Shown here piece after piece: positions 15,659 to 31,907 of a stretch of 42,752 nucleotides of DNA (positions are counted from its first letter, which is position 1; each line of letters begins with the position of its first letter). The DNA is from an uncultured Lachnospiraceae bacterium. GTDB taxonomy: Bacteria > Bacillota > Clostridia > Lachnospirales > Lachnospiraceae. The translations under genes and the position numbers were made by a program. The stretch is from contig CADCII010000040.1 of NCBI GenBank assembly GCA_902801515.1, positions 1 to 42,752 of the forward strand. Direction: 5' to 3'. The notes beneath the pieces were generated by a model. That model worked only from the letters and a program-made list of their open reading frames with translations, was not told where the DNA came from and searched no databases.

Positions 15659-16057
15659 ATGAAAAACAGAGGAGTGTTGCAGTGGACAGCGCTTGCGCTG
15701 TCAGTCCTTATGGCGGCAGGGGTACAGACGGTGTTCCGTGCATGCGCGCAGAAAGAGGACGGCACCTGGATGCATTGCCATGAAGTGCAGAAATACTTAT
15801 TTATTATCGGTATTATTCTGGCTCTGCTGTCAGTCCTGGGACTGGCAGTAAAGAAGCGGACAGCAGCGATCCTGCTGGACTTTGCAAGTATTGTGCTTGC
15901 GGCTGCCGCTGTCCTTCTCCCGGGAACGGTCATGCAGATGTGCATGATGGACACAATGAGATGCTACACGATGATGCAGCCTTTTGCCCGGGTGACAGGG
16001 GGAGTTCTGATCCTGGTGTCAGTGATCGATATCATCAAACTATTCAGAACGGCATAA
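15659..16057 (+). CDS. DUF4418 family membrane protein
   Basis: A 132-residue protein with four hydrophobic helices (about 8-26, 45-64, 70-90, 110-128). The first extracytoplasmic loop contains RACAQKEDGTWMHCHE, and the third holds QMCMMDTMRCYTM, a Cys/Met/His-rich arrangement typical of DUF4418 and suggestive of metal or redox chemistry. Function of the family is not established; members occur beside FtsX-type transporters in clostridia. AGAGGAG precedes the ATG. It is the first gene of the iron operon, 38 nt ahead of the FTR1 permease gene. Confidence 0.8.
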   Translation: MKNRGVLQWTALALSVLMAAGVQTVFRACAQKEDGTWMHCHEVQKYLFIIGIILALLSVLGLAVKKRTAAILLDFASIVLAAAAVLLPGTVMQMCMMDTMRCYTMMQPFARVTGGVLILVSVIDIIKLFRTA

Positions 16058-16095
16058 CGATTTTATCAGTACATCTATCGAAAGAAGGCAATGAT

Positions 16096-17865
16096 ATGAA
16101 AACAGGCAGGATCAGACAGATTTTCTCCATACTGGCAGCGCTGCTGATATTCATGCTTCCGCTGAGTTCACTCAGTGTGCCTGCAGAGGAAACATCCGCC
16201 TACCCGGATTCCTGGGAGGCATATATGGAAGAGAACGGAATAGAAGAGTTCACATACAATGCAGTTGTGGACGGAATGTCACTGGTTCTTGATACTGCAG
16301 CAAAAACTTACGAGTCCGGCGACGCGGACACAGCACTGAAACAGATCTCAGACGCCAAGACGGTCTACTGGGGCGGCTCGGGATTCAAGGTCGAGATGCA
16401 GAAGAAACTGCCGGCGATCCATAAGAGTACCGTGCTGGCTGATTTTAAAGCCTGCACCAAGACAATCAAAGAAGGCGGCTCGGCTGCTGATTTTGTGACA
16501 GCGAAAGACGTTCTGGCTGCAGATCTGCGCAACGCAGCAAATAAGCTGGATGGAGTTAAGGTCGACATGGATATTGCCGAAGAGGGCGATACAGCTGCGA
16601 CCGCTTTGTTCGCAGAGCAGTATTACAAAGACTGGGCGTCTTACAGCGCTGCTGCCGGCAAGGAGAGCGACTGGACCTGGAATGATGTCGCGGACGCAAT
16701 GGCGGAAGTCTTCCGCGATGCGAAGGCAAAGTTCGCCGAGGGTGACACTGAGACAGCATACAGCCATGTCAATGACGGATATTACGGATATTATGAGACG
16801 ACCGGTTTCGAGCGCAATACGATGGGGTATATCTCAGGCGCCAGAAAGTCTGAAGTAGAACTCCAGTTCTCGGCGGCAAAGTCTGCTTCAGGGAGCGGTT
16901 CGGCTGAGGAGTTCAATGAGGCGGTCGATGTTCTCAGGACGATGATCCGTACAGATGCAAATAAACTGGATGGAGTTGACGAGAACGGCAACTCGACCGG
17001 TGGCGGAAGATCCGCCGGGCTGGCTACTTTCATCGCCTGCTTCACCATTCTTCTTCGTGAAGGACTGGAAGCGATTCTGGTCGTCGGCGCTATCATTGCT
17101 TATCTCGTAAAGACATCGATGCAGAAGTCCGCAGATGAGAAAAAACGTCTGATCCGCCCTGTTTACGCAGGAGCAATCCTGGGTATCCTACTGAGCTTTG
17201 TATCAGCGTGGCTGCTCAATCAGCTGAAGCTTGCCAACAGCGCTTCGCAGGAGGTGATTGAAGGCGTAACCGCACTGATCGCGGTCGCTGTCCTGTTCTA
17301 TGTCAGCAACTGGATGGTATCCAAGTCTGAGTCAGAAGCCTGGAGCGCATATATCGAGAGCAAGGTTGGCAATGCTGCACAGACCGGAAGCTCATTTGCC
17401 CTGGCCTTTACAGCGTTCCTGGCGGTCTACAGAGAAGGCGCGGAAGTCATCCTGTTCTATCAGCCGCTTCTGTCGGGCGGAAACACCAGGATGGTATGGC
17501 TTGGTTTTGTAGTTGGCTGTGTGGTTCTGGTATTTGTCTTCCTGGCCATCCGCCTGCTGTCGGTAAAACTGCCGCTGAAACCATTTTTCCTGGCTACCAG
17601 TATCCTTATGGCAATCATGTCGATCGCGTTCCTCGGAAGCGGAATCAAGGAGCTGATCGAAGGCGATGTAATCGCGATGCATTCACCGGCATGGGTAGCA
17701 TGGATACCGTCGAACTCTGTACTTGAACTTCTGGGCATATATCCATGCGTAGAGACAGTCGTTCCGCAGCTGATTCTTCTGGTGATCACAATCTTCACCT
17801 TCGTGTACTGGCTGAAGAAGAATAAAAAGCTCAAGGAACAGATGGCGCAGGAACAAGGGGCATGA
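16096..17865 (+). CDS. FTR1-family iron permease with extracytoplasmic domain
   Basis: A 589-residue membrane protein that carries iron across the cytoplasmic membrane. The start at 16096 gives a signal sequence (residues 1-30). Residues 40-155 and 185-295 are two copies of an exported helical domain, each ending NKLDGV. A seven-helix FTR1 domain follows (about 305-575). Both iron-binding REGLE-type motifs are present: REGLE at 321-325 and REGAE at 446-450. The architecture matches the FTR1 of the Campylobacter P19 system and bifidobacterial BfeU. The next gene encodes the P19-type partner. An upstream extension of the frame overlaps the DUF4418 gene and is not used. Confidence 0.95.
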   Translation: MKTGRIRQIFSILAALLIFMLPLSSLSVPAEETSAYPDSWEAYMEENGIEEFTYNAVVDGMSLVLDTAAKTYESGDADTALKQISDAKTVYWGGSGFKVEMQKKLPAIHKSTVLADFKACTKTIKEGGSAADFVTAKDVLAADLRNAANKLDGVKVDMDIAEEGDTAATALFAEQYYKDWASYSAAAGKESDWTWNDVADAMAEVFRDAKAKFAEGDTETAYSHVNDGYYGYYETTGFERNTMGYISGARKSEVELQFSAAKSASGSGSAEEFNEAVDVLRTMIRTDANKLDGVDENGNSTGGGRSAGLATFIACFTILLREGLEAILVVGAIIAYLVKTSMQKSADEKKRLIRPVYAGAILGILLSFVSAWLLNQLKLANSASQEVIEGVTALIAVAVLFYVSNWMVSKSESEAWSAYIESKVGNAAQTGSSFALAFTAFLAVYREGAEVILFYQPLLSGGNTRMVWLGFVVGCVVLVFVFLAIRLLSVKLPLKPFFLATSILMAIMSIAFLGSGIKELIEGDVIAMHSPAWVAWIPSNSVLELLGIYPCVETVVPQLILLVITIFTFVYWLKKNKKLKEQMAQEQGA

Positions 17866-17874
17866 CTGAGCACC

Positions 17875-17895
17875 GTGGCCGGACATGCCGGCCGC
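17875..17895 (+). terminator. Intercistronic hairpin (ftr1/P19)
   Basis: GTGGCCGG (17875-17882) pairs with CCGGCCGC (17888-17895, one G-T pair) around 5 nt. There is no T-run, so it is more likely an RNA processing or stability hairpin than a terminator. Confidence 0.45.
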
Positions 17896-17969: not shown

Positions 17970-18521
17970 ATGAAGAAAAAGATTCTTGCTCTGGCACTTG
18001 TAGGTGCGATGGCACTTACTGCTTTCCCGGCAATGGCTGGTGAGGCCGGCTTTGTCGAGAATGAAATCTTCTCTGATGAAGAGCTTGATTTCATCAACCT
18101 GTCTGCTGTCTGGTTCCAGGCTGTACCGATGGAGAATGAGACCATGACTTACAGCGCAGAGGATGCTGACATTCATATCGAGGCTGACATCTCCGCACTT
18201 GAGAATGACCTTGGATATCCGGTAGGTGAGTGGGTTCCGTATCTGACCGTCGACTATAAGATCGAGGATCAGGATGGAAATGAAGTTGTTGCAGGAACCT
18301 TCATGGAGATGGCAGCATCTGACGGTCCGCACTATGGAAACAACATCAAGCTTGATCCGGGTACCTACAACCTGACGATCACCATCCACAGCCCGGGCGA
18401 GAACGGATACCTCATCCATTCGGATGCTGAGACCGGCCCCGGCGGATCCCTTAAGGATCATTTCGCAGACGGAACTCTGTCATACACTTTTGAAGGCTGG
18501 GAGTTCGCAGGTCTCGAGTAA
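17970..18521 (+). CDS. P19/Tp34-type periplasmic iron-binding protein
   Basis: A 183-residue exported protein with a cleavable signal peptide (about 1-23, AMA-GEAG). It belongs to the Tp34/P19 family, which binds iron or copper outside the membrane and hands iron to FTR1. Expected ligands are visible: His69 and Glu71 in DIHIEADI, a Met at 112 or 114 and His121 in FMEMAASDGPHYGNN, and His140 and His150 in IHSPGENGYLIHSD. AGGAGG lies 7 nt before the ATG. The protein lacks a lipobox, so how it is retained in a cell without an outer membrane is unclear. Hairpins on both sides of the gene may raise its share of the transcript. Confidence 0.92.
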   Translation: MKKKILALALVGAMALTAFPAMAGEAGFVENEIFSDEELDFINLSAVWFQAVPMENETMTYSAEDADIHIEADISALENDLGYPVGEWVPYLTVDYKIEDQDGNEVVAGTFMEMAASDGPHYGNNIKLDPGTYNLTITIHSPGENGYLIHSDAETGPGGSLKDHFADGTLSYTFEGWEFAGLE

Positions 18522-18635: not shown

Positions 18636-19886
18636 ATGCTCACGTATCTGATACTTACTACGCGCGCAGTACTGATGGAAGCGGCTGTTCTCGGTGTGAT
18701 GACTGGCTGGACAAAAATAACGGCCGGCAAGACACACAGGCGCATAGTATGGGCATTCGCAGTGATCGGAGTCCTGTTCTCCATCTTCATTGCGGTAATG
18801 AGAAATACGACAAGTATGATCGATACAGCGATCCTGAACGGGTGGATCTACACGATCGGCCTGGCGGCGTTTGTGCTGTTTCTGATCTTCACAATAAAGA
18901 AACCATCTGACCATGGCGTCTTCTCTGTGATTCCGTGGGTGCTTCTCGGAGTGATCTGCATAACGGTAATTGCTTATGCAATGCCGGATGTCTGGGCGTA
19001 TCCCTATCATGTGCTCCAGCAGGAATCCACCATCATCTCTACGGAATTCCTGATGTCCATGATCGGTATGACTGCGGGGCTGATCCTGGCTGTGGTCACA
19101 TTCCTTGCGTCTGAGCGATGCACAAGACGTCTGAGTTATACACTGGCATCGGTTCTGCTGCGCGCGGAACTGCTGATCAACGCAGCACTGCGTCTGTCAA
19201 ACCTGTCTTCTGTTTTCTTCCAGAAGAAGATCGTCAAGTCAAATCACACCATGTTTGCGTACACGGTTTTTATGAAGAACCATAAAGACTGGTTCCTGTT
19301 CCTGGCCGTTTCGCTGGTCGTGCTTACGGCGGCCGGACTGTGGGCTGCAAGCCTGCGTCAGAAAGAACCTTACCGCAACCCGGCGGAGCATCGCAAGATC
19401 CGCGCGAAATGGCGCCGTACCCGCCGCTGGGCGTCTGCGGCAGTCATCTGCTTCATATTTGTGATCCTCAATCTGACTGTGATCGAGAAGGCCAATGCGA
19501 CCGATGTCACACTGTCCCCTGTTGAAGAAGTATCGTCAATGGATGACGAAAACATATATGTCGGTTTCGACCTGGTGGAGGACGGCCATCTGCACCGTTT
19601 CGCATATGAGACAGAGAATGGGGTTCAGATCCGGTTTATCGTCATCAAAAAGCCGAATGGCAATTCCTACGGAATCGGACTGGACGCCTGCGACGTCTGC
19701 GGCGAGACCGGCTATTACGAGAAAGACGGACAGGTGGTCTGCAACCTGTGTGATGTTGTCATGAACATCTCAACCATCGGATTCAAGGGCGGCTGCAACC
19801 CGATTGTTATTCCGTATGAAGTCAGCAACGGTCAGATCAAAGTCCCGATCGCAGGCCTGCTCGAATACGAAAGGGAGTTCAAATAA
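18636..19886 (+). CDS. DUF2318 (Fe-S-like) membrane protein of the P19 system
   Basis: A 416-residue protein with eight or so hydrophobic segments and a C-terminal extracytoplasmic domain. That domain has the cysteine pattern LDACDVCGETGYY, then VCNLCDVVMN and GGCNPI, the DUF2318 signature seen in the Campylobacter Cj1660-type protein of the same operon. The cysteines probably bind a metal or iron-sulfur centre and move electrons near FTR1/P19, perhaps for iron reduction. The ATG at 18636 has GGAGG 6 nt before it; a TTG 12 nt upstream overlaps that site and is not used. Its stop overlaps the next start by one base. Confidence 0.88.
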   Translation: MLTYLILTTRAVLMEAAVLGVMTGWTKITAGKTHRRIVWAFAVIGVLFSIFIAVMRNTTSMIDTAILNGWIYTIGLAAFVLFLIFTIKKPSDHGVFSVIPWVLLGVICITVIAYAMPDVWAYPYHVLQQESTIISTEFLMSMIGMTAGLILAVVTFLASERCTRRLSYTLASVLLRAELLINAALRLSNLSSVFFQKKIVKSNHTMFAYTVFMKNHKDWFLFLAVSLVVLTAAGLWAASLRQKEPYRNPAEHRKIRAKWRRTRRWASAAVICFIFVILNLTVIEKANATDVTLSPVEEVSSMDDENIYVGFDLVEDGHLHRFAYETENGVQIRFIVIKKPNGNSYGIGLDACDVCGETGYYEKDGQVVCNLCDVVMNISTIGFKGGCNPIVIPYEVSNGQIKVPIAGLLEYEREFK

Positions 19887-21175
19887 TGTTTGTACGAATG
19901 ATAGCCAAGGCCTTTCTAAGGCAGTGGAAGAAAATGCTCATGATCGCATTCACCATCGCGCTTGGCGCATCTCTGGCGACAGCCATGCTCTCAGTCATGA
20001 TGGATGTCGAAGATAAAATGAACCAGGAACTGAAGGCATATGGAGCAAATATTACAGTGGTTCCCAAGAGCGCTTCCGTCATCAGTGACCTGTACGATGT
20101 CGGCGATGAAAATGTTTCCGGCACGTATCTGCAGGAAGATGAACTCGGCAAGATCAAGACGATCTTCTGGGCGTTCAACATTGTAGATTACACACCTTTC
20201 ATATCAACAGAAGTCACCCTGGACAGCGGGGATGTTGAACAAGTGACAGGCACTTGGTTTAACCACCATATGGATCTGCCTACCGGGGAGACTCTGGATG
20301 CGGGAATCGCTTCCCTGCGCAGCTGGTGGACGATTACGGAAGGCGACTGGCTGGATGAGCAGGGGTCCCACAGCGGTGACTATGCGATGGTCGGCACTCT
20401 GCTTGCACAGAAAGAGCAGATATCTGTCGGTGATAAGATCCATGTGACCGGAAGCGAAACGGAGAAGGAACTTGAAGTCGTCGGCATCTTTGATGCGGGC
20501 GGTGACGAAGATGAACTGATCTACGTCCCGGTAGATACCGCTCAGGAGCTGGGCGGACTGGACGGAAAGATTGACAGTATTGAAGTTTCAGCGCTGACAA
20601 CTCCTGACAACGAACTGGCCCAGAAGGCGGCGAGAGATCCGAGTTCTCTGTCGGTATCCCAGTATGAGACATGGTACTGCACAGCATATGTAAGTTCGAT
20701 CTGCTACCAGATCGAAGAGGTGATCACCGATTCTGTCGCTTCTGCAGTCCGACAGGTAGCGGATTCCGAGGGACAGATTCTGAATAAGACAAAACTCCTG
20801 ATGATCCTGATCACGATTCTGTCGATGATCGGCGCGGCGCTTGGCATCTGCAACCTCGTCACAGCATCCGTCATGGAGAGGTCTCAGGAGATTGGCCTCA
20901 TGAAGGCGATTGGCGCTCATAATCCTGCGATTACAGGACTTGTTCTGACGGAGGTCATGTGTACGGCAGTCATCGGCGGTGTGGCCGGTTTTTATGCAGG
21001 CATTGGGTTCGCCCAGATCATAGGGCATTCCGTATTTGACGCCTCTATCTCTATCCGCCCGATGGTAGTTCCTGTGGTCGGCGTCCTGGTTGCGCTTGTC
21101 ACACTGATCGGAAGCATTCCCGCTATCAGGATGCTGCTGAACCTCAGACCGACAGAAGTACTTCACGGAAGATAA
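19886..21175 (+). CDS. FtsX/MacB-type ABC transporter permease 1 (P19 system)
   Basis: A 429-residue permease. One N-terminal helix (about 17-40) is followed by a large extracytoplasmic MacB_PCD-like domain beginning YGANITVVP, then three C-terminal helices of the FtsX domain (about 300-425, with EIGLMKAIGAHN). Start and preceding stop overlap (TAATG). Homologous permeases lie in the same order in the Campylobacter P19 operon. Such transporters are mechanotransmitters or exporters; the substrate in this system is unknown. It pairs with the next permease and the ATPase at 22360. Confidence 0.9.
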   Translation: MFVRMIAKAFLRQWKKMLMIAFTIALGASLATAMLSVMMDVEDKMNQELKAYGANITVVPKSASVISDLYDVGDENVSGTYLQEDELGKIKTIFWAFNIVDYTPFISTEVTLDSGDVEQVTGTWFNHHMDLPTGETLDAGIASLRSWWTITEGDWLDEQGSHSGDYAMVGTLLAQKEQISVGDKIHVTGSETEKELEVVGIFDAGGDEDELIYVPVDTAQELGGLDGKIDSIEVSALTTPDNELAQKAARDPSSLSVSQYETWYCTAYVSSICYQIEEVITDSVASAVRQVADSEGQILNKTKLLMILITILSMIGAALGICNLVTASVMERSQEIGLMKAIGAHNPAITGLVLTEVMCTAVIGGVAGFYAGIGFAQIIGHSVFDASISIRPMVVPVVGVLVALVTLIGSIPAIRMLLNLRPTEVLHGR

Positions 21176-21187: not shown

Positions 21188-22354
21188 ATGAAAAAGAGGA
21201 AAATGTATATCCGCATGATCACTGCCTCGCTGCTGAGGCGGAGGTCACGCATGATTATTGCATTGCTCGCAATCTCTATAGGAGCAATGATCCTGTCCGG
21301 CCTGGTTACGATCTATTATGATGTACCGCGCCAGATGGGCGCACAGTTCAGAAGCTATGGCGCAAACATGATACTGGTATCGGAAGGAGATGCCATCACG
21401 CAGCAGCAGGTGGACGAGACCAGGCAGCAGATCCCGGCTGACAAACTGGTCGGCATAGCGGCATACCGGTATCAGACCGTCCGCATCAATGACCGGCCCG
21501 TCATGGCGGCTGCGGCCGATATGGAACAGGTGCGGAAAACAAGTCCTTTCTGGCTGGTGGACGGAGAGTGGCCGGCAAATGAAGGGGAGATCATGGTCGG
21601 AAAGAACCTGGCCGAGATCTATAATCTGAAAGTCGGCAAGCGGACAACATGCACGTTTGCACCGGAGTCCGAGACAGAAGCTGAAAATGGAGAAACGGAA
21701 GAGGTCGTCCCGGATAACTGGATCGATTTCACCGTGACAGGTATCCTGGATACCGGCGGAAAAGAAGAGGATTACGCCTACATGCTCCTCTCTGATATGG
21801 AGAAGCTGACCGGGATTCCGACAGAGTATGACGTCTGCGAATTGTCTGTTTCCGGCAGCTCACAGGAACTGTCGGCAATCGCGGACAGGATCGCCGACAA
21901 TGTGGAAGGAATCCAGGCAAGACTGGTCAAGCGCGTCACGGAATCGGAAGATACAGTCCTGTCCAAGCTGCAGTCACTGGTCCTTCTCGTTACAGTCGTC
22001 GTACTGGCACTGACGATGATCTGCGTGGCGACCACCATGACGGCAGTCGTCGCAGAGCGGCGTAAGGAGATTGGCCTTCGCAAGGCGCTTGGCGCTAGCA
22101 ACGGCAGCATCATCGCCGAGTTTATGGGTGAGGGCGTTGTTCTCGGCGCATTCGGAGGCCTGCTGGGGTCTCTTCTGGGCTTCCTGTTCGCCCAGGCAGT
22201 ATCCAGAAATGTATTCAACAGTTCGATCACACTGATGCCGTGGCTGGTTCCGGTGACGATCCTTGCATCTGTACTTGTTACCGGTATTGCCTGCCTGATC
22301 CCGATCAGGAGCGCAACCCAGGTCGATCCCGCACTTGTGCTGAAAGGAGAATGA
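21188..22354 (+). CDS. FtsX/MacB-type ABC transporter permease 2 (P19 system)
   Basis: A 388-residue permease paralogous to the preceding one: an N-terminal helix, an extracytoplasmic domain starting YGANMILVSEGDAI, then three helices with RKEIGLRKALGASNGS. AAAGGAG precedes the ATG at 12 nt. Its stop overlaps a possible upstream start of the ATPase gene, so the three genes are translated as a block. With the permease at 19886 it likely forms a heterodimer. Confidence 0.9.
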   Translation: MKKRKMYIRMITASLLRRRSRMIIALLAISIGAMILSGLVTIYYDVPRQMGAQFRSYGANMILVSEGDAITQQQVDETRQQIPADKLVGIAAYRYQTVRINDRPVMAAAADMEQVRKTSPFWLVDGEWPANEGEIMVGKNLAEIYNLKVGKRTTCTFAPESETEAENGETEEVVPDNWIDFTVTGILDTGGKEEDYAYMLLSDMEKLTGIPTEYDVCELSVSGSSQELSAIADRIADNVEGIQARLVKRVTESEDTVLSKLQSLVLLVTVVVLALTMICVATTMTAVVAERRKEIGLRKALGASNGSIIAEFMGEGVVLGAFGGLLGSLLGFLFAQAVSRNVFNSSITLMPWLVPVTILASVLVTGIACLIPIRSATQVDPALVLKGE

Positions 22355-22359
22355 CAGAC

Positions 22360-23058
22360 ATGAGTCTTCTTGAATTGAAAAATGTATCGAAAATATACGG
22401 CAGCCTTCACGCGCTGGATCACGTCAGCCTCAAGGTAGAGAAAGGGGAATGGCTGGCGATCATGGGACCGTCCGGATCCGGTAAAAGTACGATGATGAAC
22501 ATCATCGGGGCACTGGACAAGGCAACCGAGGGTGAGATCCTTCTGGACGGAGTAGACATTGCGAAGAAAAATGCAAAAGCTCTCACGGATATCCGCAGAG
22601 ACAAGATCGGCCTGATCTTCCAGCAGTTCCATCTGGTCAGCTATCTGACTGCTGTGGAGAATGTGATGCTTGCCCAGTATTACCACAGCGTGCCGGATGA
22701 GAAAGAGGCACTGGAGGCACTGGACAGAGTCGGACTTGCAGACCGTGCGCATCATTATCCAAGCCAGCTGTCAGGCGGCGAGCAGCAGAGAGTATGTGTC
22801 GCCCGCGCTCTGATCAACTATCCGGAGATCATTCTCGCAGATGAACCGACCGGAAACCTGGATGAAGCGAATGAAGAGATCGTCGTGGAACTGTTCCGTA
22901 AACTGCACATGGACGGCACTACACTCGTGGTCGTCACCCACAACCCGGAAGTTGCGGAAGTTGCTCAGCGTACCATCGTTCTTCGAAACGGAAGAGTGGA
23001 CCATGAGACAATCAATGAGAACTTTACCGGCAAAATCAAGCATATAACATTGCAGTAA
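22360..23058 (+). CDS. ABC transporter ATPase of the P19 system
   Basis: A 232-residue LolD/MacB-type ATPase. Walker A GPSGSGKST is at 36-44, the Q-loop at 88-89 (FQQ), signature LSGGEQQR at 137-144, Walker B IILADE at 157-162 and the switch His in VVTHN. The ATG at 22360 sits 10 nt after GGAG; an in-frame ATG at 22351 would be too close. It energises the two FtsX-type permeases. Directly after its stop begins the nested palindrome at 23059. Confidence 0.92.
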   Translation: MSLLELKNVSKIYGSLHALDHVSLKVEKGEWLAIMGPSGSGKSTMMNIIGALDKATEGEILLDGVDIAKKNAKALTDIRRDKIGLIFQQFHLVSYLTAVENVMLAQYYHSVPDEKEALEALDRVGLADRAHHYPSQLSGGEQQRVCVARALINYPEIILADEPTGNLDEANEEIVVELFRKLHMDGTTLVVVTHNPEVAEVAQRTIVLRNGRVDHETINENFTGKIKHITLQ

Positions 23059-23245
23059 TTGCATGACAGCGAGGTTCAGCCGGTATCCGGAGCACTATAG
23101 GGAGACGACTGACCTTCGCAAGGAGCGCGGCGGCGCGACGCGACCACGCATCTATAGGAGCCAAAGCGCCGTCCGAATGCGACGCAGCGAAGCGAAGGTA
23201 GGCGACCGTGTGATCAGGATACCGACTGATCTGAGTGTCATGCAA
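23059..23245 (+). repeat. 187-nt nested palindromic element, likely a structured RNA or MITE-like repeat
   Basis: Five sets of complementary arms nest without conflict: 23059-23068 with 23236-23245 (10 bp, perfect), 23076-23079 with 23226-23229, 23081-23088 with 23217-23224 (8 bp, perfect), 23112-23119 with 23192-23199 (8 bp, perfect) and 23131-23136 with 23166-23171 (6 bp). The element is more GC-rich than its surroundings and fills nearly the whole gap between the ATPase gene and the FMN-binding lipoprotein gene. An ORF across it (23063-23257) has no protein character. It could end or attenuate the first half of the operon. Confidence 0.6.
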
Positions 23246-23278
23246 AATAGTATGTGAATGTATGAGGAGTGTGTATCT

Positions 23279-23731
23279 ATGAAGAAGTTTACAGTAATCA
23301 GCCTTGCGGTGGTCCTGACGGTCGGAATGCTGTCCGGATGCAGCGGCGGCAAAAAGGTTTCGTACAAGGACGGTACTTATGAGGCGCAGAGTTCTGTCTT
23401 TGAGAATGATGACGGAACTGACGACGGCAACGGATACGGCGTTGTCTCACTGACCATAACCGATGGCAAGATCTCCGACTGCTCTTTCCTCACATATGAG
23501 AAAGACGGTACCCTGAAGGATGAGGAGTATGGCAAGGAGGATGGCCGCATCGCTAACAAGGATTATTACAATAAAGCGCAGAAGGCTAATGCAGCCTGTG
23601 CGGAGTATGCTTCCATGCTTGTGCAGAACGGTCAGCTGGACGGAATTGACTCGATCAGCGGGGCTACCATCAATTACAAGGAATTCAAGGAAGCAGTGGA
23701 AGCAGCACTGAAGGAAGCAGAAGAAAAATGA
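23279..23731 (+). CDS. FMN-binding lipoprotein (flavinylation motif)
   Basis: A 150-residue exported lipoprotein: signal peptide with lipobox MLSGC, lipidated Cys21. The rest is one FMN_bind domain: KDGTYEAQS, GYGVVSLTITDGKISDC, and the flavinylation motif DSISGAT at 124-130, whose Thr130 would carry a covalent FMN added by an ApbE enzyme. Such proteins move single electrons on the outer face of the membrane, as in extracellular electron transfer or Rnf/Nqr-like chains. FMN_bind genes follow P19/FTR1 operons in bifidobacteria too. GAGGAG precedes the ATG. No ApbE gene is seen in this window, so the modifying enzyme must be elsewhere. Confidence 0.92.
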   Translation: MKKFTVISLAVVLTVGMLSGCSGGKKVSYKDGTYEAQSSVFENDDGTDDGNGYGVVSLTITDGKISDCSFLTYEKDGTLKDEEYGKEDGRIANKDYYNKAQKANAACAEYASMLVQNGQLDGIDSISGATINYKEFKEAVEAALKEAEEK

Positions 23732-24222: not shown

Positions 24223-24770
24223 GAAAAACCAATGCGATCGTGACAGTTCTGATCATGGTATTGTTTCTGATCCATATGATCTGGGGCGGTATGGAACTTG
24301 CGGGCATGACCAGGGGCGGAAGTGCTCTGTTCAAAGTTCTGTCCCACACCATGATCCTCCTGATCATGATCCATATCGGAATCGGAATCGTCACGACAGT
24401 ACAGACGATCAGAACCTGCAGACAGTCTGGCGTTTCCTACTTCAGACAGAACCGCCTGTTCTGGATCCGCAGGATCAGCGGTTTTGCCCTGATGCTCTTC
24501 ATGATCTGCCATATAGTAATCTTTACAGGTACGCAGGAGAGCGGCACCTACCGTCTGTCTTTGTTTGCAGGCGTGCAGCTGGCGACACAGATCCTCATGG
24601 TGGTATGCCTGCTGGTGCATCTTCTGTGCAATATCACACCGCTTCGCATCGCCCTGGGGATTGAGGACCGCCACAGGTTCAGAACAGACGTCCTGCTGGT
24701 GCTTGCCATTCTGCTGCTTCTGGCAGGTATTGCATTTGTGGTTTATTACATCCGCTGGAAGGTGATCTGA
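24219..24770 (+). CDS. Cytochrome-b-type membrane anchor of the fumarate-reductase-like complex
   Basis: A 183-residue protein with five predicted helices (about 5-24, 38-60, 84-104, 117-140, 157-178). Histidines sit inside or at the ends of helices 1-4 (His19, His43, His52, His98, His134), the pattern of a di-heme quinone-reactive b subunit. RRISGFALMLFMICH closely resembles the RISG motif of SdhC/FrdC-type anchors. It would accept electrons from, or give them to, the FrdA/FrdB-like subunits encoded 2-4 kb downstream, and may exchange electrons with menaquinone and the flavin lipoproteins outside. The start overlaps the previous stop by 4 nt. Confidence 0.75.
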   Translation: MRKTNAIVTVLIMVLFLIHMIWGGMELAGMTRGGSALFKVLSHTMILLIMIHIGIGIVTTVQTIRTCRQSGVSYFRQNRLFWIRRISGFALMLFMICHIVIFTGTQESGTYRLSLFAGVQLATQILMVVCLLVHLLCNITPLRIALGIEDRHRFRTDVLLVLAILLLLAGIAFVVYYIRWKVI

Positions 24771-24786: not shown

Positions 24787-25992
24787 TTGAAACATCTCAG
24801 ACAGTTTATTTACCGGAATCTGGTTCGAAGACCGGTCCGGAGCATCGCCCTGATCCTTCTGGCAGCAGTTCTCAGTATGTCGATCTGTGCAGGGACCTGT
24901 GTGGTACAGTCTCTGGAAAATGGGTTTGCAGCCATGAGAAACAGAATGGGGGCGGATATCATGGTCGTCCCATATGCTGCCTTATCCAGGAAGAACTTTG
25001 ACAATGAGATCCTGCTGGGGAATACAGGGAACTTCTATATGCCCAAAGAGAATACGGAGAAGATATCCGGCATGGAAGGTGTGCAGAATCTTTCCACCCA
25101 GTATTACCTTACAAGTGTTCAGACAGATGTCTGTGATACACCGGTTCACCTGATCGCTTATGACCCGGAGACCGATTTTACGGTTGCTCCGTGGATCCTG
25201 CAGACGGACGGGAGCCCCATCGATCCGTACGATGTTGTGATCGGAAGCAGTGTCCGTGCTGAGGTAGGAGATGTACTGACTTTCTTCGGCACGGATGTGA
25301 CAGTGGCTGCGAAACTGGACCGTTCAGACACGGACTATGACTGTACTGTCTTTGCGGATATGGAAACGATCCTGGCACTGGCGGATGCGTCCGGTGATGA
25401 AACACTGCTCTCTTATTCGCAGGCAGATGACGGAGGAATGGTCTCGACAATCCTTGTGGATGTGGCAGACGGATATGATATTGAATCGGTGAAAAATGAC
25501 ATCAACATCCATATAAAAAAGATCCGCGCGCTTCAGACGAAGAATGTGCTTTCGGGAGTTTCATCCGGTATGAGCGGGGTATCCGGGACTGCTAAGATCC
25601 TGATGTCGGCAGTCTGGATCATAGCAATGGGAGTCATGGCTGCGGCTTTTATCATGATGACAGGAGAGCGCAAACGGGAATTCGCAGTGCTGAGAGTTCT
25701 GGGGGCTTCCAGAAAGAAACTTACTGCAGTCGTACTGGGCGAGGGGGTGACTCTGAGCGGAGTGGGTGCTGCAGGAGGGGCAGCAATAGGCCTGGCTGTG
25801 ATATTTGTCTGTTCCGGGTGGATGGAGAAACAGCTGAATCTTCCATTTCTTCTTCCCGGAGCAGGTTCTATCGTGCTGGATGTAATACTTGCTTTCTGTG
25901 TCTCGACTCTGACAGGAGCTGCTGCAGCTTCTCTTGCAGCGCACAGGATCAGCAGACAGGATACCGGTACGATCATCAGGAGTGAAGAATAA
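24787..25992 (+). CDS. FtsX/MacB-type ABC permease, redox cluster copy A
   Basis: A 401-residue permease starting at TTG (24787) with GGGGGAG 4-5 nt upstream. An N-terminal helix (about 17-38) is followed by an extracytoplasmic domain beginning RMGADIMVVP and containing AYDPETDFTVAPWI, then three C-terminal helices with GERKREFAVLRVLGAS. It is clearly paralogous to the permease at 29129 (same ETDFTV.PWI block) but distinct from the two P19-system permeases. Its ATPase follows with a one-base overlap. The substrate is unknown. Confidence 0.88.
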   Translation: MKHLRQFIYRNLVRRPVRSIALILLAAVLSMSICAGTCVVQSLENGFAAMRNRMGADIMVVPYAALSRKNFDNEILLGNTGNFYMPKENTEKISGMEGVQNLSTQYYLTSVQTDVCDTPVHLIAYDPETDFTVAPWILQTDGSPIDPYDVVIGSSVRAEVGDVLTFFGTDVTVAAKLDRSDTDYDCTVFADMETILALADASGDETLLSYSQADDGGMVSTILVDVADGYDIESVKNDINIHIKKIRALQTKNVLSGVSSGMSGVSGTAKILMSAVWIIAMGVMAAAFIMMTGERKREFAVLRVLGASRKKLTAVVLGEGVTLSGVGAAGGAAIGLAVIFVCSGWMEKQLNLPFLLPGAGSIVLDVILAFCVSTLTGAAAASLAAHRISRQDTGTIIRSEE

Positions 25993-26654
25993 TGGAAGTC
26001 AGAGGACAGCAGATCCGAAAAGAATATTACCGCTCCGGAACGGGCTCCAACATCTTCACGGCGGTTGAAGAGTGTGACTTTCTCGTTCCGTCCGGGAAAC
26101 TGACGGTGATCCACGGCAGATCGGGAAGCGGAAAGAGCACCATTCTCAATATGCTCGCAGGAATCCTGAAGCCGACCGGAGGAAGTGTATTCTATGATGA
26201 CACAGATCTCTACTCGATGAGAGATGAAGAACTGGCCAGGTTCCGCAATCTGCATATCGGGTATGTACCCCAGGGCAGGAGTGCGGTCCCTTCCCTGAAC
26301 GTTCTGGAAAATGTGGCGCTTCCCTATGCATTATATGAAGAAGACGGAGAAGAAGCCGCTGCAGAGATGATGGAGCGGTTCGGGATTGCAGATCTGAGTG
26401 AAGTCATGCCCGACCGGCTCTCAGGAGGTGAACTTCGCAGAATGGCGATCGCCAGAGCACTGGTGAGGCGGCCTGAGGTCATATTTGCAGACGAACCCAC
26501 CGGAGATCTGGATGATGAAAATACAGTGGCCGTGTTTGGAGCACTGAGAGAACTCGCGGCGGCAGGAGCAGCGGTACTGGTCGTAACGCATGAAGAAGAT
26601 GCATTTGAATACGCGGACCACATCTATGCCATGAATGCGGGAAAACTGGAGTAA
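25992..26654 (+). CDS. ABC transporter ATPase, redox cluster copy A
   Basis: A 220-residue ATPase: Walker A GRSGSGKST at 42-50, Q-loop VPQGRSAVP at 92-100, signature LSGGELRR at 143-150, Walker B VIFADE at 163-168, followed by DDENT and VVTHEED. The Q-loop sequence is shared with the ATPase at 30362 and not with the P19-system ATPase. The start overlaps the permease stop. The next gene (flavoprotein) begins 4 nt after its stop. Confidence 0.9.
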   Translation: MEVRGQQIRKEYYRSGTGSNIFTAVEECDFLVPSGKLTVIHGRSGSGKSTILNMLAGILKPTGGSVFYDDTDLYSMRDEELARFRNLHIGYVPQGRSAVPSLNVLENVALPYALYEEDGEEAAAEMMERFGIADLSEVMPDRLSGGELRRMAIARALVRRPEVIFADEPTGDLDDENTVAVFGALRELAAAGAAVLVVTHEEDAFEYADHIYAMNAGKLE

Positions 26655-26658
26655 GCCT

Positions 26659-28353
26659 ATGAAACAGCAGATGCCAATAAACATCATAGGGGCAGGACTG
26701 GCCGGCCTGTCTGCCGCGAAGACATGCGCAGAAGCGGGCATCCGGGTACGTCTGATCTCATTTCAGCCATCCGAGCGCGCCCAGTCAAACCTTGCGGAGG
26801 GCGGCATCAATGCGGCTTTAAATGTGATGGGTGAAGATGACAGCACGGAGAATCATTTCCGGGACACCATGAAAGGCGGCTGTGATCTGGCAGATCCGAA
26901 CATGGTCAGGAATCTTACACAGGATGCTCCGGATATCGTTATGGAAATGGACAGGCTGGGAGTTCCGTTTCACAGAGAGAACGGACATATGGTCCAGAGA
27001 AACTTCGGAGGCCAGAAGAAGAAACGCACGGCATACGCGAAAAGCAGCACCGGGAAAGTCCTGACGACTGCTCTGATCGATGCTGTGAGAAAATATGAGG
27101 TGCAGGGACTGGTAGAGCGATATCCGCATCACCGTTTTGAAAAACTCATCCTGAGAAATGAAGCGGCAGCCGGAGTGCTGGTCTGCGACCGCTACAGCGG
27201 GAAAGAGACGGTCATGGCCGGCCGTGTCCTGATGGCATGCGGCGGCATGAACGGGTTGTTTGCCGGTGCAACGACAGGGACAACTGCCAATACCGGATCC
27301 GCCGCCGGAGTTCTCTTCGAGCAGGGAGTGGAGTTTGCGAACCTGGAGTTCCTGCAGTATCACCCGACCACAGTCTCAATCACCGGCAAGAGGCTGCTCG
27401 TCTCAGAGGCAGCCCGCGGGGAAGGCGGAAGACTGTTTTATTATGAAACAGATACGCCCGGACATCCGGAAGATACTGGCGTGAAGCGGTATTTCCTGGA
27501 GGAAAAGTACGGTGAGAGAGGCAATCTTATGCCCAGGGATGTCATCTCCAGAGAGATGGCGATGCTGGGCAGGCAGGTGTATCTGGACCTGACGGTCCTC
27601 GATGAAAAGACCTGGAAGGTGAAACTGTCTGACCTGCGTGATGAAATCATCCATTATCTTGGGATCGATCCGGCTTGTGAGCCGGTTCCAGTATCGCCCG
27701 GAATCCATTATTTCATGGGAGGGATCCTTGTGGATGAGCACCACAGAACGAATATTTCCGGCCTGTGTGCGGCGGGAGAATGTGCCTGCGCATACCATGG
27801 TGCCAACCGCCTTGGAGGTAATTCTCTGCTTGGGGCGATCTATGGGGGCAGGCAGGCTGCCCGGACTATGATCAGGGAGATTGCCGAAGACATGTCAGCC
27901 GGGGCTGCGTACGAAAATACTCTGTGCGTTGATCCGGAATCATTTCAGGATGGTGCAGCAGATCCTGCAGATACCGCATCCTCATTCAGAACCCTTACCG
28001 AAGAAGAAACCCTGATTCAGGAGAAGATGTCACAGATCCTGATGGAAGGGATGATGCCGCTCAGGGACGGGAAGCTGATCACACATGCGCTGACAGAACT
28101 TGAGAAACTGAAAGCACGTGCAGGGGAGCATGAAAAACGTACGGATGAACCGGGCGGGTTCTCAGATGAGTGCAGAGCGAAACTGCTGCTGGCTGAGGCG
28201 ACACTGAGATGCGCACTGGAACGGAGAGAGTCCAGAGGAGCGCACACGCGTCTGGACTTCCCGCAGACGGATGAGAACATGAGGAAAACAACAGTGGTCA
28301 GGTATGAGAAGGGAGAGATCCGTATCTCCTTCAGGGAGATTTCCCGGCTGTGA
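26659..28353 (+). CDS. Fumarate reductase/succinate dehydrogenase-like flavoprotein
   Basis: A 564-residue cytoplasmic FAD enzyme of the FrdA/SdhA/NadB family, which transfers hydride between FAD and a dicarboxylate. The FAD-binding start is INIIGAGLAGLSAA. Substrate-site residues are conserved: His235 (YHPTT), Ser249-Glu250 and Arg253 (SEAARGEGG), Arg293 (MPRDV), His350 (HYFMGG) and Arg384 (ANRLGGNSL). The histidine that binds FAD covalently in respiratory FrdA/SdhA is absent: the site reads SNLAEGG. A C-terminal helical domain ends in RTTVV-like sequence. The start at 26659 is chosen since an earlier ATG lies inside the ATPase gene. L-aspartate oxidase is the main alternative, but the partner iron-sulfur gene argues for a membrane complex. 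Confidence 0.88.
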   Translation: MKQQMPINIIGAGLAGLSAAKTCAEAGIRVRLISFQPSERAQSNLAEGGINAALNVMGEDDSTENHFRDTMKGGCDLADPNMVRNLTQDAPDIVMEMDRLGVPFHRENGHMVQRNFGGQKKKRTAYAKSSTGKVLTTALIDAVRKYEVQGLVERYPHHRFEKLILRNEAAAGVLVCDRYSGKETVMAGRVLMACGGMNGLFAGATTGTTANTGSAAGVLFEQGVEFANLEFLQYHPTTVSITGKRLLVSEAARGEGGRLFYYETDTPGHPEDTGVKRYFLEEKYGERGNLMPRDVISREMAMLGRQVYLDLTVLDEKTWKVKLSDLRDEIIHYLGIDPACEPVPVSPGIHYFMGGILVDEHHRTNISGLCAAGECACAYHGANRLGGNSLLGAIYGGRQAARTMIREIAEDMSAGAAYENTLCVDPESFQDGAADPADTASSFRTLTEEETLIQEKMSQILMEGMMPLRDGKLITHALTELEKLKARAGEHEKRTDEPGGFSDECRAKLLLAEATLRCALERRESRGAHTRLDFPQTDENMRKTTVVRYEKGEIRISFREISRL

Positions 28354-28396: not shown

Positions 28397-29107
28397 ATGA
28401 AAAAGATTCTCCATATCCTGCGCCGTGAGAGTGCGCAGGCAAGACCCTACTGGGAGGATTTTTATTTTGAAACGCAGGATGCCGGGGCGACGGTCGCGAC
28501 AGCCCTGTCTTCCCTGCATGCGGAAAACAGGATATCTCCTGCACAAGGCAGCAGATTCAGACCTGTCATATGGGAACACAGCTGCCTTCAGAAACGATGC
28601 GGGGCATGTTCGATGATCATAGACGGTGTCCCTGCACTGGCCTGCGATACAAGGCTGTCACAGCTGAAAGGAGACACGGTCAGGCTCGAGCCGCTCAGGA
28701 AATTCCCTGTGGTTGCGGATCTTCTGGTTGACCGTTCCGTCATGATGGAGAATCTGAAGGATCTGTCAGTCTGGCTGGAGGCGGAAGCCGGTGCCGGGTC
28801 TGAGGATATGGCATTCGAAGCCTCCCGGTGTCTGCAGTGCGGCCTGTGCCTTGAGATCTGCCCGAACTTCGCGGCGGGAGGCTCATTTTCAGGTATGGCC
28901 GCCATGGCGCCTCTGTCACGTCTGATAGCGCGGCTGCCGGAAGAGCAGAGAAAACAGACAGCAAGAAACTATAAAAAAGGTGTATACAGCGGATGCGGCA
29001 AGTCTCTTGCCTGCCGCGACGTATGTCCGGCGGAGATAAAGATAGACGAGCTGCTGGTAAAGAGTAATGCGGCTGCCGTCTGGAACCGCTGGAATTCCAT
29101 AAAATAA
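28397..29107 (+). CDS. Fumarate reductase/succinate dehydrogenase-like iron-sulfur subunit
   Basis: A 236-residue FrdB/SdhB-type electron-transfer protein. All three cluster motifs are present: [2Fe-2S] ligands Cys63, Cys68, Cys71 and Cys83; [4Fe-4S] ligands Cys145, Cys148, Cys151 and Cys210; and Cys155, Cys200, Cys206 for the third cluster. These match the spacing in E. coli FrdB. It links the flavoprotein to the cytochrome-b-like protein. The ATG at 28397 (MKKILHILRR) is preferred; the frame extends upstream into the flavoprotein gene without a good site. GGGAG lies about 7 nt before the start. Confidence 0.9.
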   Translation: MKKILHILRRESAQARPYWEDFYFETQDAGATVATALSSLHAENRISPAQGSRFRPVIWEHSCLQKRCGACSMIIDGVPALACDTRLSQLKGDTVRLEPLRKFPVVADLLVDRSVMMENLKDLSVWLEAEAGAGSEDMAFEASRCLQCGLCLEICPNFAAGGSFSGMAAMAPLSRLIARLPEEQRKQTARNYKKGVYSGCGKSLACRDVCPAEIKIDELLVKSNAAAVWNRWNSIK

Positions 29108-29128
29108 AAACAAGGAAAAGGTACTGCC

Positions 29129-30334
29129 ATGCGGATCTTTCGTAAACTTCCCATATTGAATCTGTGCAGACGGCCGGTGCGGTCTGCCATGCTGCTGTGT
29201 ATAGCAGCGCTGCTGTCATTTACCGTGTTCGGAGGCGCTGTGATGGTATCCGGACTTAGGCGCGGGATGGCTTCGCTGGAGGATCGTCTGGGGGCAGATA
29301 TTCTGGTTGTCCCGGAAGAGGCAGCCAGGAAGAATGATCTGGAGAGTATCGTGCTTCAGGGCAGCACCGGATATTTTTACATGGATGACAGCAAACTGGA
29401 TGAGATCGCAGCGGTGGATGGAGTCGGCCAGTCGACGTCACAGATCTTTCTTGCATCACTTGCTGCAAGCTGCTGCTCTGCCAAAGTGCAGCTGATGGGC
29501 TTTGATCCTGCGACGGATTTTACCGTTCTTCCCTGGATCCGCAAATCCTATACGGAGGATCTGAAGGAGATGGAGATTGTGGTCGGAAGTGATATTACAT
29601 CCGACGAAGGCGATACGCTGACATTCTATGACACGGACTGCACAGTGGCGGCGAAACTGACCAGGACCGGCACGAACTATGACCGCTGTGTATTTGCGGG
29701 GGCCGATACGATCCGCGTTCTGACAGCCAGTTCGGTGGGGAAAAAACTGAATCAGTTTAAAGAGATCGATCCCAATCATGTTGTTTCATGTGTACTGGTG
29801 AATGTGAATGAAGGTGCAGATATTGACCAGGTAGCGTCTGCGATCAATGATTCGGTGGACGGTGTGACCGCGGTCCGTACGACCAGTATGGTCTCCGGCA
29901 TTGCTGCAAACCTCAGCGGGATTTCTCATCTGGTACGTATCCTGATCGCCGGTGTATTCATACTCGCTTTCATAATTCTGATGATTGCATTCACAATGCT
30001 GATCAATGAGCGAAAAAGAGAGTTCGCGATACTGCGGGTATTCGGTGTATCCAGAAGGTCTCTTGCGGGAAGTGTGTGGAGCGAGATCCTTCTGATCTGC
30101 TTGACAGGCGCTCTGGCAGGATCGGCTGCAGCGGCGCTGGTCACACTGCCTTTCTCCGGAGCGCTTCGCAGCAGGCTGGATATGCCGATGCTGTCCCCGG
30201 GTATCGGAACAATCCTTTTGTATCTGCTGCTTGCGGTTCTGATCTGTGCTGCGGCAGGCACCCTGTCTTCCTTCTGGAATGTCAGCCGGGTGAGCAGGGC
30301 AGACATCAGTCTTGCACTGCGGCAGGAGCGATAA
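29129..30334 (+). CDS. FtsX/MacB-type ABC permease, redox cluster copy B
   Basis: A 401-residue permease, the same length as copy A at 24787. The blocks RLGADILVVPEEAARK, GFDPATDFTVLPWI and NERKREFAILRVFGVS align with it throughout. An N-terminal helix and three C-terminal helices give the FtsX layout. A CCSAK motif lies in the extracytoplasmic domain. It follows the iron-sulfur gene by 21 nt. Copies A and B flanking the frdAB-like pair imply duplication of a permease-ATPase unit followed by divergence, perhaps forming a heterodimer or two exporters. Confidence 0.88.
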   Translation: MRIFRKLPILNLCRRPVRSAMLLCIAALLSFTVFGGAVMVSGLRRGMASLEDRLGADILVVPEEAARKNDLESIVLQGSTGYFYMDDSKLDEIAAVDGVGQSTSQIFLASLAASCCSAKVQLMGFDPATDFTVLPWIRKSYTEDLKEMEIVVGSDITSDEGDTLTFYDTDCTVAAKLTRTGTNYDRCVFAGADTIRVLTASSVGKKLNQFKEIDPNHVVSCVLVNVNEGADIDQVASAINDSVDGVTAVRTTSMVSGIAANLSGISHLVRILIAGVFILAFIILMIAFTMLINERKREFAILRVFGVSRRSLAGSVWSEILLICLTGALAGSAAAALVTLPFSGALRSRLDMPMLSPGIGTILLYLLLAVLICAAAGTLSSFWNVSRVSRADISLALRQER

Positions 30335-30361
30335 CAGGTAAGGGATGCAGGAGAACAAGAG

Positions 30362-31117
30362 ATGATACTGACAGCGGATAAGATCAGCAGAAGTTTTTTG
30401 AGAGGAAGCAGAGAATTCTGCGCCGTAAAAGAAGCGGATATTACTCTTGAGGGAGGAAAACTGACAGTCCTTCGCGGAAGATCCGGGAGCGGCAAGACCA
30501 CCCTTCTGAACATTCTGGCAGGCTTGCAGCCGCCATCCTCGGGCAGGGTCCTTGCGGATTACGGTGTACCGAAGCCGGAAAACGCACCGGAACCGGGAAC
30601 AGGACAAAGAACAGAGTTCGTTACGGATCTGTACAGTATGGATGACCGGACCCTCTCTAGATTCAGAAATGATCATTACGGGATCGTACCGCAGGGGCAG
30701 AGTGCGGTTGCTACACTGACGGTCTTTGAGAATATCCTCCTTCCCGGAACAATCTACGGACAGGATAACAGTGTCCGTGAAAGGGCGCATGAACTGATGG
30801 AGAGAATGGGGATCACGGATCTGAAAGGTTCATTTCCCAAAGAACTGTCCGGTGGAGAGATGCGCAGAATGGCAATCGCAAGAGCTCTGATACGGGACCC
30901 GAAGGTCCTGTTTGCGGATGAGCCGACCAGTGATCTGGATGACGACAACAGAGATACTTTATTCCGGATCCTCAGGCAGATCGCGGATGAAGGAAAAGCT
31001 GTTTTTGTAGTGACGCATGAGCGCAGCGCATCAGAATATTCGGATGACATGTACCTCATGGACGCCGGCGTATTGAGAAAAGTTGAACCGGGCCAGGAGC
31101 CGGCAAGGGGGCAGTGA
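30362..31117 (+). CDS. ABC transporter ATPase, redox cluster copy B
   Basis: A 251-residue ATPase: Walker A GRSGSGKTT at 39-47, Q-loop IVPQGQSAV, signature LSGGEMRR, Walker B VLFADE, VVTHER. It resembles copy A but has about 20 extra residues (roughly 66-88, rich in Pro/Glu/Gly) between Walker A and the Q-loop, and Ser instead of Gly in DEPTSDLD. It works with the permease at 29129. Confidence 0.9.
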   Translation: MILTADKISRSFLRGSREFCAVKEADITLEGGKLTVLRGRSGSGKTTLLNILAGLQPPSSGRVLADYGVPKPENAPEPGTGQRTEFVTDLYSMDDRTLSRFRNDHYGIVPQGQSAVATLTVFENILLPGTIYGQDNSVRERAHELMERMGITDLKGSFPKELSGGEMRRMAIARALIRDPKVLFADEPTSDLDDDNRDTLFRILRQIADEGKAVFVVTHERSASEYSDDMYLMDAGVLRKVEPGQEPARGQ

Positions 31118-31142
31118 CAGAAACAAAGTGAGAGGAGCAGAT

Positions 31143-31907
31143 ATGGGGAGGAATGGCAGAAGGCAGAATTCCCTGTCATTGTTCATTCTATGCGCAGCGA
31201 TTCTCTGTGCAGGAGGTGCTTTTTTCCTGCTGCGCACCCTGACAGACACACAGATTCCTTATCTGACAAAAGCCGGGCAGCTGAAAAGGGGCGATGTCGT
31301 CACATTCGGAGAATGTGAACAGGACGGGGACAGCAATAACGGTCCGGAGTCCATTCCATGGATCGTGCTCGAAGTACAGGAAGACAAAGCTCTGCTTCTT
31401 GCCAGGGACATACTCGGGCCAGTCTCATTTCATGATCAGTATGAGGCAGTAACCTGGGAAGACTGTGCGCTCAGAGAATGGCTGAATGATACATTTTTCA
31501 GGGAATCATTTTCTGATAAAGAGAAGAAAATGATTCTTACTTCTTCAAATGAAAATCCGGACAATCCGGGAATGGAATCCCATGGATGCGGCGTGACACA
31601 GGATAAAGTCTTTCTTCTGAGGATGGAAGAATACAGCGCTTATATGCGCACAGAGGAAGACCGTTATGTGACCGGCTCTGCAAGCCCCACCAGGTATGCG
31701 CTGCTGCACCATCTGGAAACGGATGATGAGACAGGAGAGAACCCGGGCAAAGCCTGCTGGTGGCTTCGGACATCCGGATCCGATCAGTATGCAGCCGCAT
31801 TTGTCGATAGGGACGGCGGTATTCATGCGGCGGGTGCACAGGTCAGTCATGCCGTTTACTGTGGCCTGAGGCCTGCAGTATGGGTGGAGTATAAGCAGGA
31901 ACACTGA
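31143..31907 (+). CDS. Membrane-anchored DUF6273 protein
   Basis: A 254-residue protein with an N-terminal membrane helix (SLFILCAAILCAGGAFFLL) and an extracytoplasmic DUF6273-like domain: KRGDVVTFGECEQDGD, SIPWIVLEVQEDKALLLAR, WEDCALREWLNDTFF, WWLRTSG and a final YCGLRPAVWVE. DUF6273 proteins are common on clostridial surfaces and resemble formylglycine-enzyme/C-lectin folds; their function is not settled. GAGAGGAG precedes the ATG. It is the last gene of the cluster before the terminator, so it may be a surface accessory of the redox system, but this is inferred from position only. Confidence 0.75.
   Translation: MGRNGRRQNSLSLFILCAAILCAGGAFFLLRTLTDTQIPYLTKAGQLKRGDVVTFGECEQDGDSNNGPESIPWIVLEVQEDKALLLARDILGPVSFHDQYEAVTWEDCALREWLNDTFFRESFSDKEKKMILTSSNENPDNPGMESHGCGVTQDKVFLLRMEEYSAYMRTEEDRYVTGSASPTRYALLHHLETDDETGENPGKACWWLRTSGSDQYAAAFVDRDGGIHAAGAQVSHAVYCGLRPAVWVEYKQEH

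Follow-up and report, generated by a model that had tools for sequence, protein, structure and literature searches.

The redox step of the iron importers built on the P19 protein and the FTR1 permease is unsettled in the parts of the literature that touch on it (PMC10783030, PMC8238504, PMC11966278), and it is raised anew by a locus from an uncultured Lachnospiraceae bacterium in which the genes of such an importer run on into those of a fumarate reductase. The locus occupies positions 15659-31907 of the window, i.e. the whole 42,752-nucleotide stretch analysed here, which is one complete contig (C40) of a 3.08-Mb genome (G000; G-numbers denote genomes and L-numbers loci). What would a fumarate reductase do for an iron importer? 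Our preferred answer, to which we give a probability of roughly 0.5, is that the operon combines a Fet/P19-FTR1 importer with a fumarate reductase of its own, independent of quinone, which oxidises flavins on the outer side of the membrane and thereby Fe(II) for FTR1. A candidate redox partner for P19/FTR1, with a defined cytosolic substrate, would then be encoded in the operon itself, which makes the iron redox question testable. If true, this would also mean that a member of the complex II family operates without quinone, and that uncultured gut and rumen bacteria have a way to drive the oxidation in iron import without oxygen.

Much of the locus is already familiar. Its 17 plus-strand genes follow one another uninterrupted (open reading frame (ORF) list plus Pfam and NCBIfam scans of the window), and the first eight are the known Gram-positive Fet/P19-FTR1 iron system, including its FMN-binding lipoprotein (FMN, flavin mononucleotide). 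They encode a DUF4418 membrane protein (15659..16057; PF14387, 8.9e-25); the FTR1 iron permease, with a long N-terminal extension and two REXXE motifs, REGLE and REGAE (16096..17865, the start being probable and the ORF opening at 15940; PF03239, 1.2e-27); adjoining it, a FetP/FtrA-like P19 iron-binding protein (17970..18521, probable start, ORF from 17862; PF10634, 5.1e-45); an FtrD/FetA-like DUF2318 membrane protein (18636..19886, probable start, ORF from 18624; PF10080, 5.3e-30); two FtsX/MacB-type permeases, a (19886..21175) and b (21188..22354), each matching PF02687 and PF12704; ATPase a, of the ATP-binding cassette (ABC) type (22360..23058, probable start, ORF from 22240; PF00005, 7.4e-36); and the FMN_bind lipoprotein (23279..23731, probable start, ORF from 23258), which exceeds the PF04205 cut-off (1.2e-8) and carries a flavinylation motif of the SGA[S/T] kind, DSISGAT, as well as a lipobox-like LSGC (lipobox by eye). 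Cysteines 352, 355, 369, 372 and 387 of the DUF2318 protein form CxxC-x13-CxxC-x14-C, in line with the CxxC-x13-CxxC-x14/15-C described in a passage of PMC6083913. FTR1, P19, DUF2318, two FtsX, ATPase and FMN_bind are ordered as in fetMP-fetABCDEF of C. jejuni and in the FtrABCD and P19-FTR1 systems, and passages of PMC6083913 and PMC10783030 place the FMN-binding protein as the seventh gene in the Firmicutes form of Campylobacter fetMP-fetABCDEF. At P19 loci of the Lachnospiraceae sample that lack FrdAB, DUF4418 and an additional FtsX and/or ATPase gene are found repeatedly; they therefore belong to the Gram-positive core rather than to a redox add-on. The sequence-only reading that first singled out this stretch had correctly seen the uninterrupted run and its families, but counted 14 genes instead of 17 (7 + 10) and assigned FMN_bind to the second half of the operon rather than to the known P19 system.

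What is new is a set of four genes that this variant, unlike the described Fet/P19-FTR1 systems, adds after FMN_bind: the flavin-motif protein that we call Flav2 (23728..24222), a five-helix FrdC/SdhC-like cytochrome b (24219..24770), the fumarate reductase-type flavoprotein FrdA (26635..28353; PF00890, 4.9e-75; PF02910, 1.9e-14; with PDB relatives) and FrdB (28397..29107, probable start by alignment with relatives, ORF from 28304; PF13085, 3.6e-23; TIGR00384 over its cut-off). Neither Flav2 nor the five-helix protein has a Pfam match at the curated cut-off, yet both are conserved families. In some Proteobacteria a cytochrome gene is the eighth gene of the system, as part of PMC6083913 reports. 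We found no description of the full FTR1-P19-Flav2-cytochrome-FrdAB set in the open-licence PMC literature (preprints not covered), nor, for the terms searched, in the corresponding parts of the complex II review PMC10238741.

Far from being a one-genome accident, the four-gene module belongs regularly to a P19-FTR1 variant that is widespread. First, in a family sample of 397 genomes, FrdA (threshold E <= 1e-60) is present in 31 and P19 in 13, and the seven closest FrdA relatives, one from the window's genus and six from other genera, have the FTR1-to-FrdB core in identical order (7/7). The 13 P19 genomes have the module at the locus in eight cases, an FMN_bind-FAD_binding_2 protein in two (G142 and G327, where it adjoins the P19 cluster on the same strand) and neither in three (G244, G376 and G072, the last two with related FrdAB elsewhere). 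Second, a Flav2 alignment scanned against 84,980 species genomes found 105 relatives; 80 of them entered the counts, each of which leaves out loci whose contig was too short on the side in question. Their titles name Lachnospiraceae, Ruminococcus, Eubacterium, other Clostridia and one Faecalitalea, all Bacillota, besides three Atopobiaceae/Coriobacteriaceae, and in many cases a rumen or gut site. FTR1 and P19 are found in 53/55 of the loci with at least 8 kb of upstream contig, the cytochrome follows Flav2 in 75/75, and FrdA and FrdB are present in 62/66 and 60/65 of the loci with room for them; all 11 core genes are there in 39/42 loci with room on both sides (the tally for ATPase a counts a distant ATPase of L141), and the FTR1-to-FrdB order is kept in 44/45 complete loci. 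Median intergenic gaps are short, with stop-start overlaps at Flav2-cytochrome and FrdA-FrdB (35 to 79 pairs with starts placed). Kinship among genomes inflates all of these counts, the titles of most named genomes mark them as metagenome assemblies, and the two surveys overlap, six loci being family genomes too (L094=G374, L108=G147, L113=G230, L133=G389, L160=G395, L171=G216). Assembly of the iron system and the module into one unit, as the sequence-only reading had proposed while allowing that its halves might prove to occur mostly apart, is thus strongly supported: they stand together across many genera. Recurrence across the surveyed genomes rules out a chance neighbourhood, and identical arrangements in independent assemblies rule out a contig artefact.

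In a quick maximum-likelihood tree, Flav2-linked FrdA form one group (Shimodaira-Hasegawa-like approximate likelihood ratio test, SH-aLRT, 98), which includes a single long-branch row; 66 of 69 FrdA were used, three being too short, sampling went through Flav2, and other FrdA kinds came from the family search only. The tree label P19 was given wherever P19, FtsXb or ATPa lay nearby; L141 bears it via its distant ATPase while standing alone. Mantel tests of FrdA against FtsXa, CytB and Flav2 gave 0.66, 0.74 and 0.63, with 0/500 permutations as high. The departures from the common layout are instructive. In L166 and L167 the module and the P19 cluster lie on different contigs, FMN_bind being the last gene of the cluster. 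Flav2 and the cytochrome are kept with no adjoining FrdAB in L148, L149, L158 and L161, and the genomes of L149 and L161, the only two of these four searched, have a cytochrome-FrdA-FrdB trio elsewhere. L105 has FrdA without FrdB, and L155 has cytochrome and FrdA fused in a single frame that stays open as far as the contig reaches (one assembly, in which a stop-removing sequencing error is possible). A lipoprotein-like protein of about 300-360 residues (by ORF), with no family assigned, follows the cytochrome in L148, L149, L158, L161, L098 and L105, and the whole Flav2 locus occurs twice, as L100 and L127, on different contigs of one assembly (Reindeer_2_mag_16).

The module resembles a di-heme complex II. 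The quinol:fumarate reductases and succinate dehydrogenases of W. succinogenes, D. gigas and C. aurantiacus share with it FrdA, an FrdB with all cluster cysteines and a five-helix, four-histidine cytochrome. The catalytic residues H243, R261, H358 and R392 of FrdA are present in 66/66 sequences aligned to 6lum, and the 11 cysteines expected to ligate the 2Fe-2S, 4Fe-4S and 3Fe-4S clusters of FrdB align in 59 to 62 of 62, the remainder being gaps. The cytochrome has four conserved histidines (19, 52, 98 and 134 in the window), and its predicted fold (single-chain structure prediction) resembles di-heme FrdC/SdhC; we make the link through this fold because by sequence an hmmsearch of PDB sequences returned one chance-level match, and the protein would accordingly be expected, rather than observed, to hold hemes. 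There are two differences from di-heme complex II besides the apparent lack of quinone in the hosts. The position that links flavin adenine dinucleotide (FAD) covalently through a histidine is, judged from the sequences, Gln50 in 66/66 FrdA, and a flavin-motif gene overlaps the cytochrome gene. L-aspartate oxidase was considered for the window's FrdA and ruled out, since the best NCBIfam and PDB matches are complex II and FrdB follows. The window's genome has 17 FAD_binding_2 matches, and its only other FrdA-profile match is far weaker (C19, E 5.8e-50); that gene is provisionally labelled nadB in our tree.

Menaquinone and ubiquinone synthesis need the quinone prenyltransferase UbiA. It was found in 0/8 family genomes with the set versus 14/14 controls; of seven other genomes, G376 and G244 have it and G327 gives a match below cut-off, these three being P19 genomes that lack the module. 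The module may operate independently of quinone; scavenged quinone could also serve. In a host without quinone the distal heme needs another partner, for which the overlapping flavin-motif gene is the candidate in the operon. Flav2 is predicted to consist of an N-terminal helix, a disordered linker with DAVSSAT and a single lobe of type-2 binding-protein-like fold. Its closest structure is 3noh (sequence match 0.012, supported by fold comparison), an R. gnavus protein (RUMGNA_00914) solved as a putative peptide binding protein, which may be a relative of the Flav2 family. The flavinylation motif is D-x-x-[S/T]-G-A-[S/T] (PMC12052999), and 68/80 Flav2 match the looser D..[ST][SG]A[ST]; attachment of FMN to Flav2, and a position of Flav2 outside the membrane, would be consistent with these features.

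In which direction would electrons flow? The path traced by the sequence-only reading, from FrdAB through the b-type protein to outer flavins, holds up as structurally plausible on the predicted fold and conserved histidines, but the outward flow that it assumed, out of the cell to iron or another external acceptor, is not supported. Relatives with noncovalent FAD reduce fumarate and do not oxidise succinate, in the cases given in part of PMC9557727, and this, together with the glutamine at the FAD-linking site, suggests that electrons probably move inward, a direction with moderate support. The rival in which cytosolic succinate or another donor feeds FrdAB, the cytochrome and the flavins to reduce Fe(III) outside, Fe(II) being then imported, keeps the same wiring; we consider such an outward ferric reductase unlikely, since the substitution disfavours succinate oxidation, no NADH- or ferredoxin-oxidising subunit is encoded among the 17 genes, and the alternative partner at related loci is of an extracytosolic type. 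These are two P19 loci without FrdAB, L092:11470-13425 and L093:12027-13814, with FMN_bind-FAD_binding_2 reductases that have export-type N-termini (by eye) and both carry SGA[T/S]; the former has flavocytochrome c3 fumarate reductase as its nearest match (4e-117), the latter urocanate reductase (8.8e-129). They resemble the extracytosolic flavinylated fumarate and urocanate reductases of Listeria and Shewanella type (PMC8238504), with which the module shares enzyme superfamily and flavin wiring, whereas the window's FrdA lacks both an FMN_bind domain and an export-type N-terminus (by eye) and has FrdB and a cytochrome as its partners. An extracytosolic reductase of this kind could be an electron sink, not a source of cytosolic electrons; with the substitution at the FAD site, this points to an electron sink as the role of the redox add-on.

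What such a sink would do beside FTR1 is suggested by yeast, in which an FTR1-family permease also has a redox partner: Ftr1p moves only Fe3+ made in situ by Fet3p, according to passages of PMC11966278. If the same holds here, Fe(II) oxidation is the most straightforward task for a sink encoded together with FTR1. The fumarate/succinate potential lies near +30 mV, so the energetics permit this if the ligands holding the iron stabilise Fe(III). In the mechanism that we propose, cytosolic FrdA and FrdB would dock on the di-heme cytochrome b, and Flav2, anchored by its one helix, would carry an FMN, tethered to it covalently, close to the distal heme on the outer face of the membrane, the FMN_bind lipoprotein connecting it to P19, FtrD and FTR1. 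Electrons would come from outside, most likely from Fe(II) undergoing oxidation for transport by FTR1, and would pass from flavin to heme, to the iron-sulfur clusters, to FAD and to fumarate inside. The ferroxidase role, with Fe(II) as the donor, is the step that we only infer. By this functional analogy, the module would take the place in these anaerobes of the multicopper ferroxidase Fet3p, which uses oxygen in the service of Ftr1p, the difference being that no multicopper oxidase is encoded among the window's 17 genes and that the proposed oxidant is fumarate across the membrane. This suggests that fumarate drives the iron redox step in oxygen-free gut and rumen bacteria as oxygen does in air-breathing cells.

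A sister module occurs in a second metal context. Nine FrdA loci of the family sample (L050-L058) at first appeared to be bare cytochrome-FrdA-FrdB trios. In L051:8410-14729, the only one read gene by gene, an ArsR/SmtB-type regulator and a Zn/Cd/Pb-type P-type ATPase precede a diverged Flav2 with a canonical DVVTGAT (hhalign against Flav2: probability 90.5, E 1.3e-6), the cytochrome, FrdA and FrdB. In the other eight, L050 being cut before the regulator, 5.5 to 6.3 kb of the block recur at 95.8-99.5% DNA identity; since the nine loci come from eight genera, the block has spread horizontally in recent times. Neither the L051 block (megablast) nor the cytochrome (tblastn) matched plasmids, and UbiA was not found in the three sister-module genomes tested besides G376 (G185, G191, G232). 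It is tempting, if speculative, to see here a complex II rebuilt as a quinone-free transmembrane metal oxidase for FTR1, with a tethered flavin in place of quinone and fumarate in place of oxygen, whose cassette, a portable electron sink for the envelope, has spread and now also stands next to a Zn/Cd/Pb-type efflux ATPase.

Several observations weigh against fumarate-driven Fe(II) oxidation as the purpose of the module. P19 systems without Frd exist, as in the three of 13 family genomes with neither Frd type at the locus, and in a wider phylum sample FrdA was near P19 in 0/16 P19 genomes, several of these loci being cut by contig ends (the profile missed P19 in L202, where Pfam found it, and gave two partial FMN_bind-FAD matches in L192). 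Conversely, FrdA lies outside a P19 locus in 23/31 FrdA-positive family genomes, P19 not being nearby at any of these 23 loci, and the glutamine in place of histidine also occurs in almost all of the other family FrdA that were examined, so that it is not specific to P19 loci. Flav2 departs from the flavinylation motif, with serine at the glycine position in 60/80 (glycine in 16, alanine in 4) and serine rather than threonine as the last residue in 51/80 (one or the other in 80/80); Gly to Ala and Thr to Ser changes lower flavinylation in tested proteins (PMC12052999). The flavin transferase ApbE is present in six of eight family genomes with the set and was not found in G374 and G230. UbiA-family genes occur in 2/25 named genomes, those of L106 and L140 (completeness of the 25 not stated), and ferrochelatase was found in 0/13 genomes (G000 and 12 others) versus 8/14 controls, so heme would have to come from import or from a different route of synthesis. 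In the portion of PMC10783030 concerned, the Campylobacter authors have reducing power relayed through FetE/F in their model, yet call both likely oxidases. L141 has the module in a genome in which P19 was not found. The module is, moreover, portable and metal-linked, which weakens a purely iron-specific view. Zn, Cd and Pb, the metals of the sister-module ATPase type, are not redox active.

Some of these points favour a general outward-facing electron sink that would accept electrons from whatever donor is available outside the cytosol, be it thiols, sulfide, flavins or metals, and serve several envelope processes, iron import among them. The sister module behind its regulator and ATPase, the eight loci sharing that block and L141 all fit such a sink, as does the resemblance of Campylobacter FetE to thiol-disulfide oxidases noted in part of PMC10783030; what makes it improbable is that FTR1 and P19 accompany all but two of the 55 informative loci of the Flav2 family proper, iron being the dominant context. 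A housekeeping fumarate reductase for respiration or redox balance, co-regulated with iron uptake only for its iron and heme need, would suit the far weaker second FrdA of the genome and the cytochrome-FrdA-FrdB trios or look-alikes at P19-free loci (in some of them the cytochrome mostly by eye), and is equally doubtful given the near-constant gene order from FTR1 to FrdB, the place of Flav2 in the P19 operon and the missing quinone enzyme in 8/8 family hosts.

Between the cytochrome and FrdA lie FtsX-type permease c (24787..25992; PF02687, 2.8e-13) and ABC ATPase c (25992..26654; PF00005, 7.8e-31), a pair that is a local insertion, ABC genes standing there in 9/69 loci having both genes. FrdB is followed by FtsX-type permease d (29129..30334; PF02687, 1.5e-15), a relative of which recurs in P19 clusters, ABC ATPase d (30362..31117; PF00005, 4.2e-29) and a DUF6273 protein (31143..31907, probable start, ORF from 31083; PF19789, 5.4e-26), found in 2/80 Flav2 loci, the closest relatives only, many contigs ending before that point. 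An Ldh_2-family dehydrogenase gene lies upstream of the operon and a cation-efflux gene downstream. The single wide intergenic gap, 23059-23278 (about 220 bp, assuming the FMN_bind start at 23279), compares with a median of 23 bp at the ATPase a/FMN_bind junction in 71 relatives (starts set by a simple rule); this GC-rich spacer, longer than that median, has repeated gcg/cgc-type elements (by eye). Terminator-like sites, mostly intragenic, numbered 25 over the two strands in a scan, versus 12.5 +/- 3.6 in shuffles, which says little about the lack of a clear terminator until 31941 that the sequence-only reading had noted. Evidence for a Fur box is weak: the best window match to the Fur consensus has four mismatches, and 9/52 relatives have a match with at most three, versus about 5% in single-base shuffles. 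Elsewhere in the genome, a second FMN_bind gene (L072:10434-14448, on contig C7 of G000) lies in surroundings that resemble an Rnf operon. Finally, a minus-strand protein at 12040-13815 of the window, which resembles an alpha-amylase, has a long Glu/Ser/Gln-rich low-complexity insertion in its middle.

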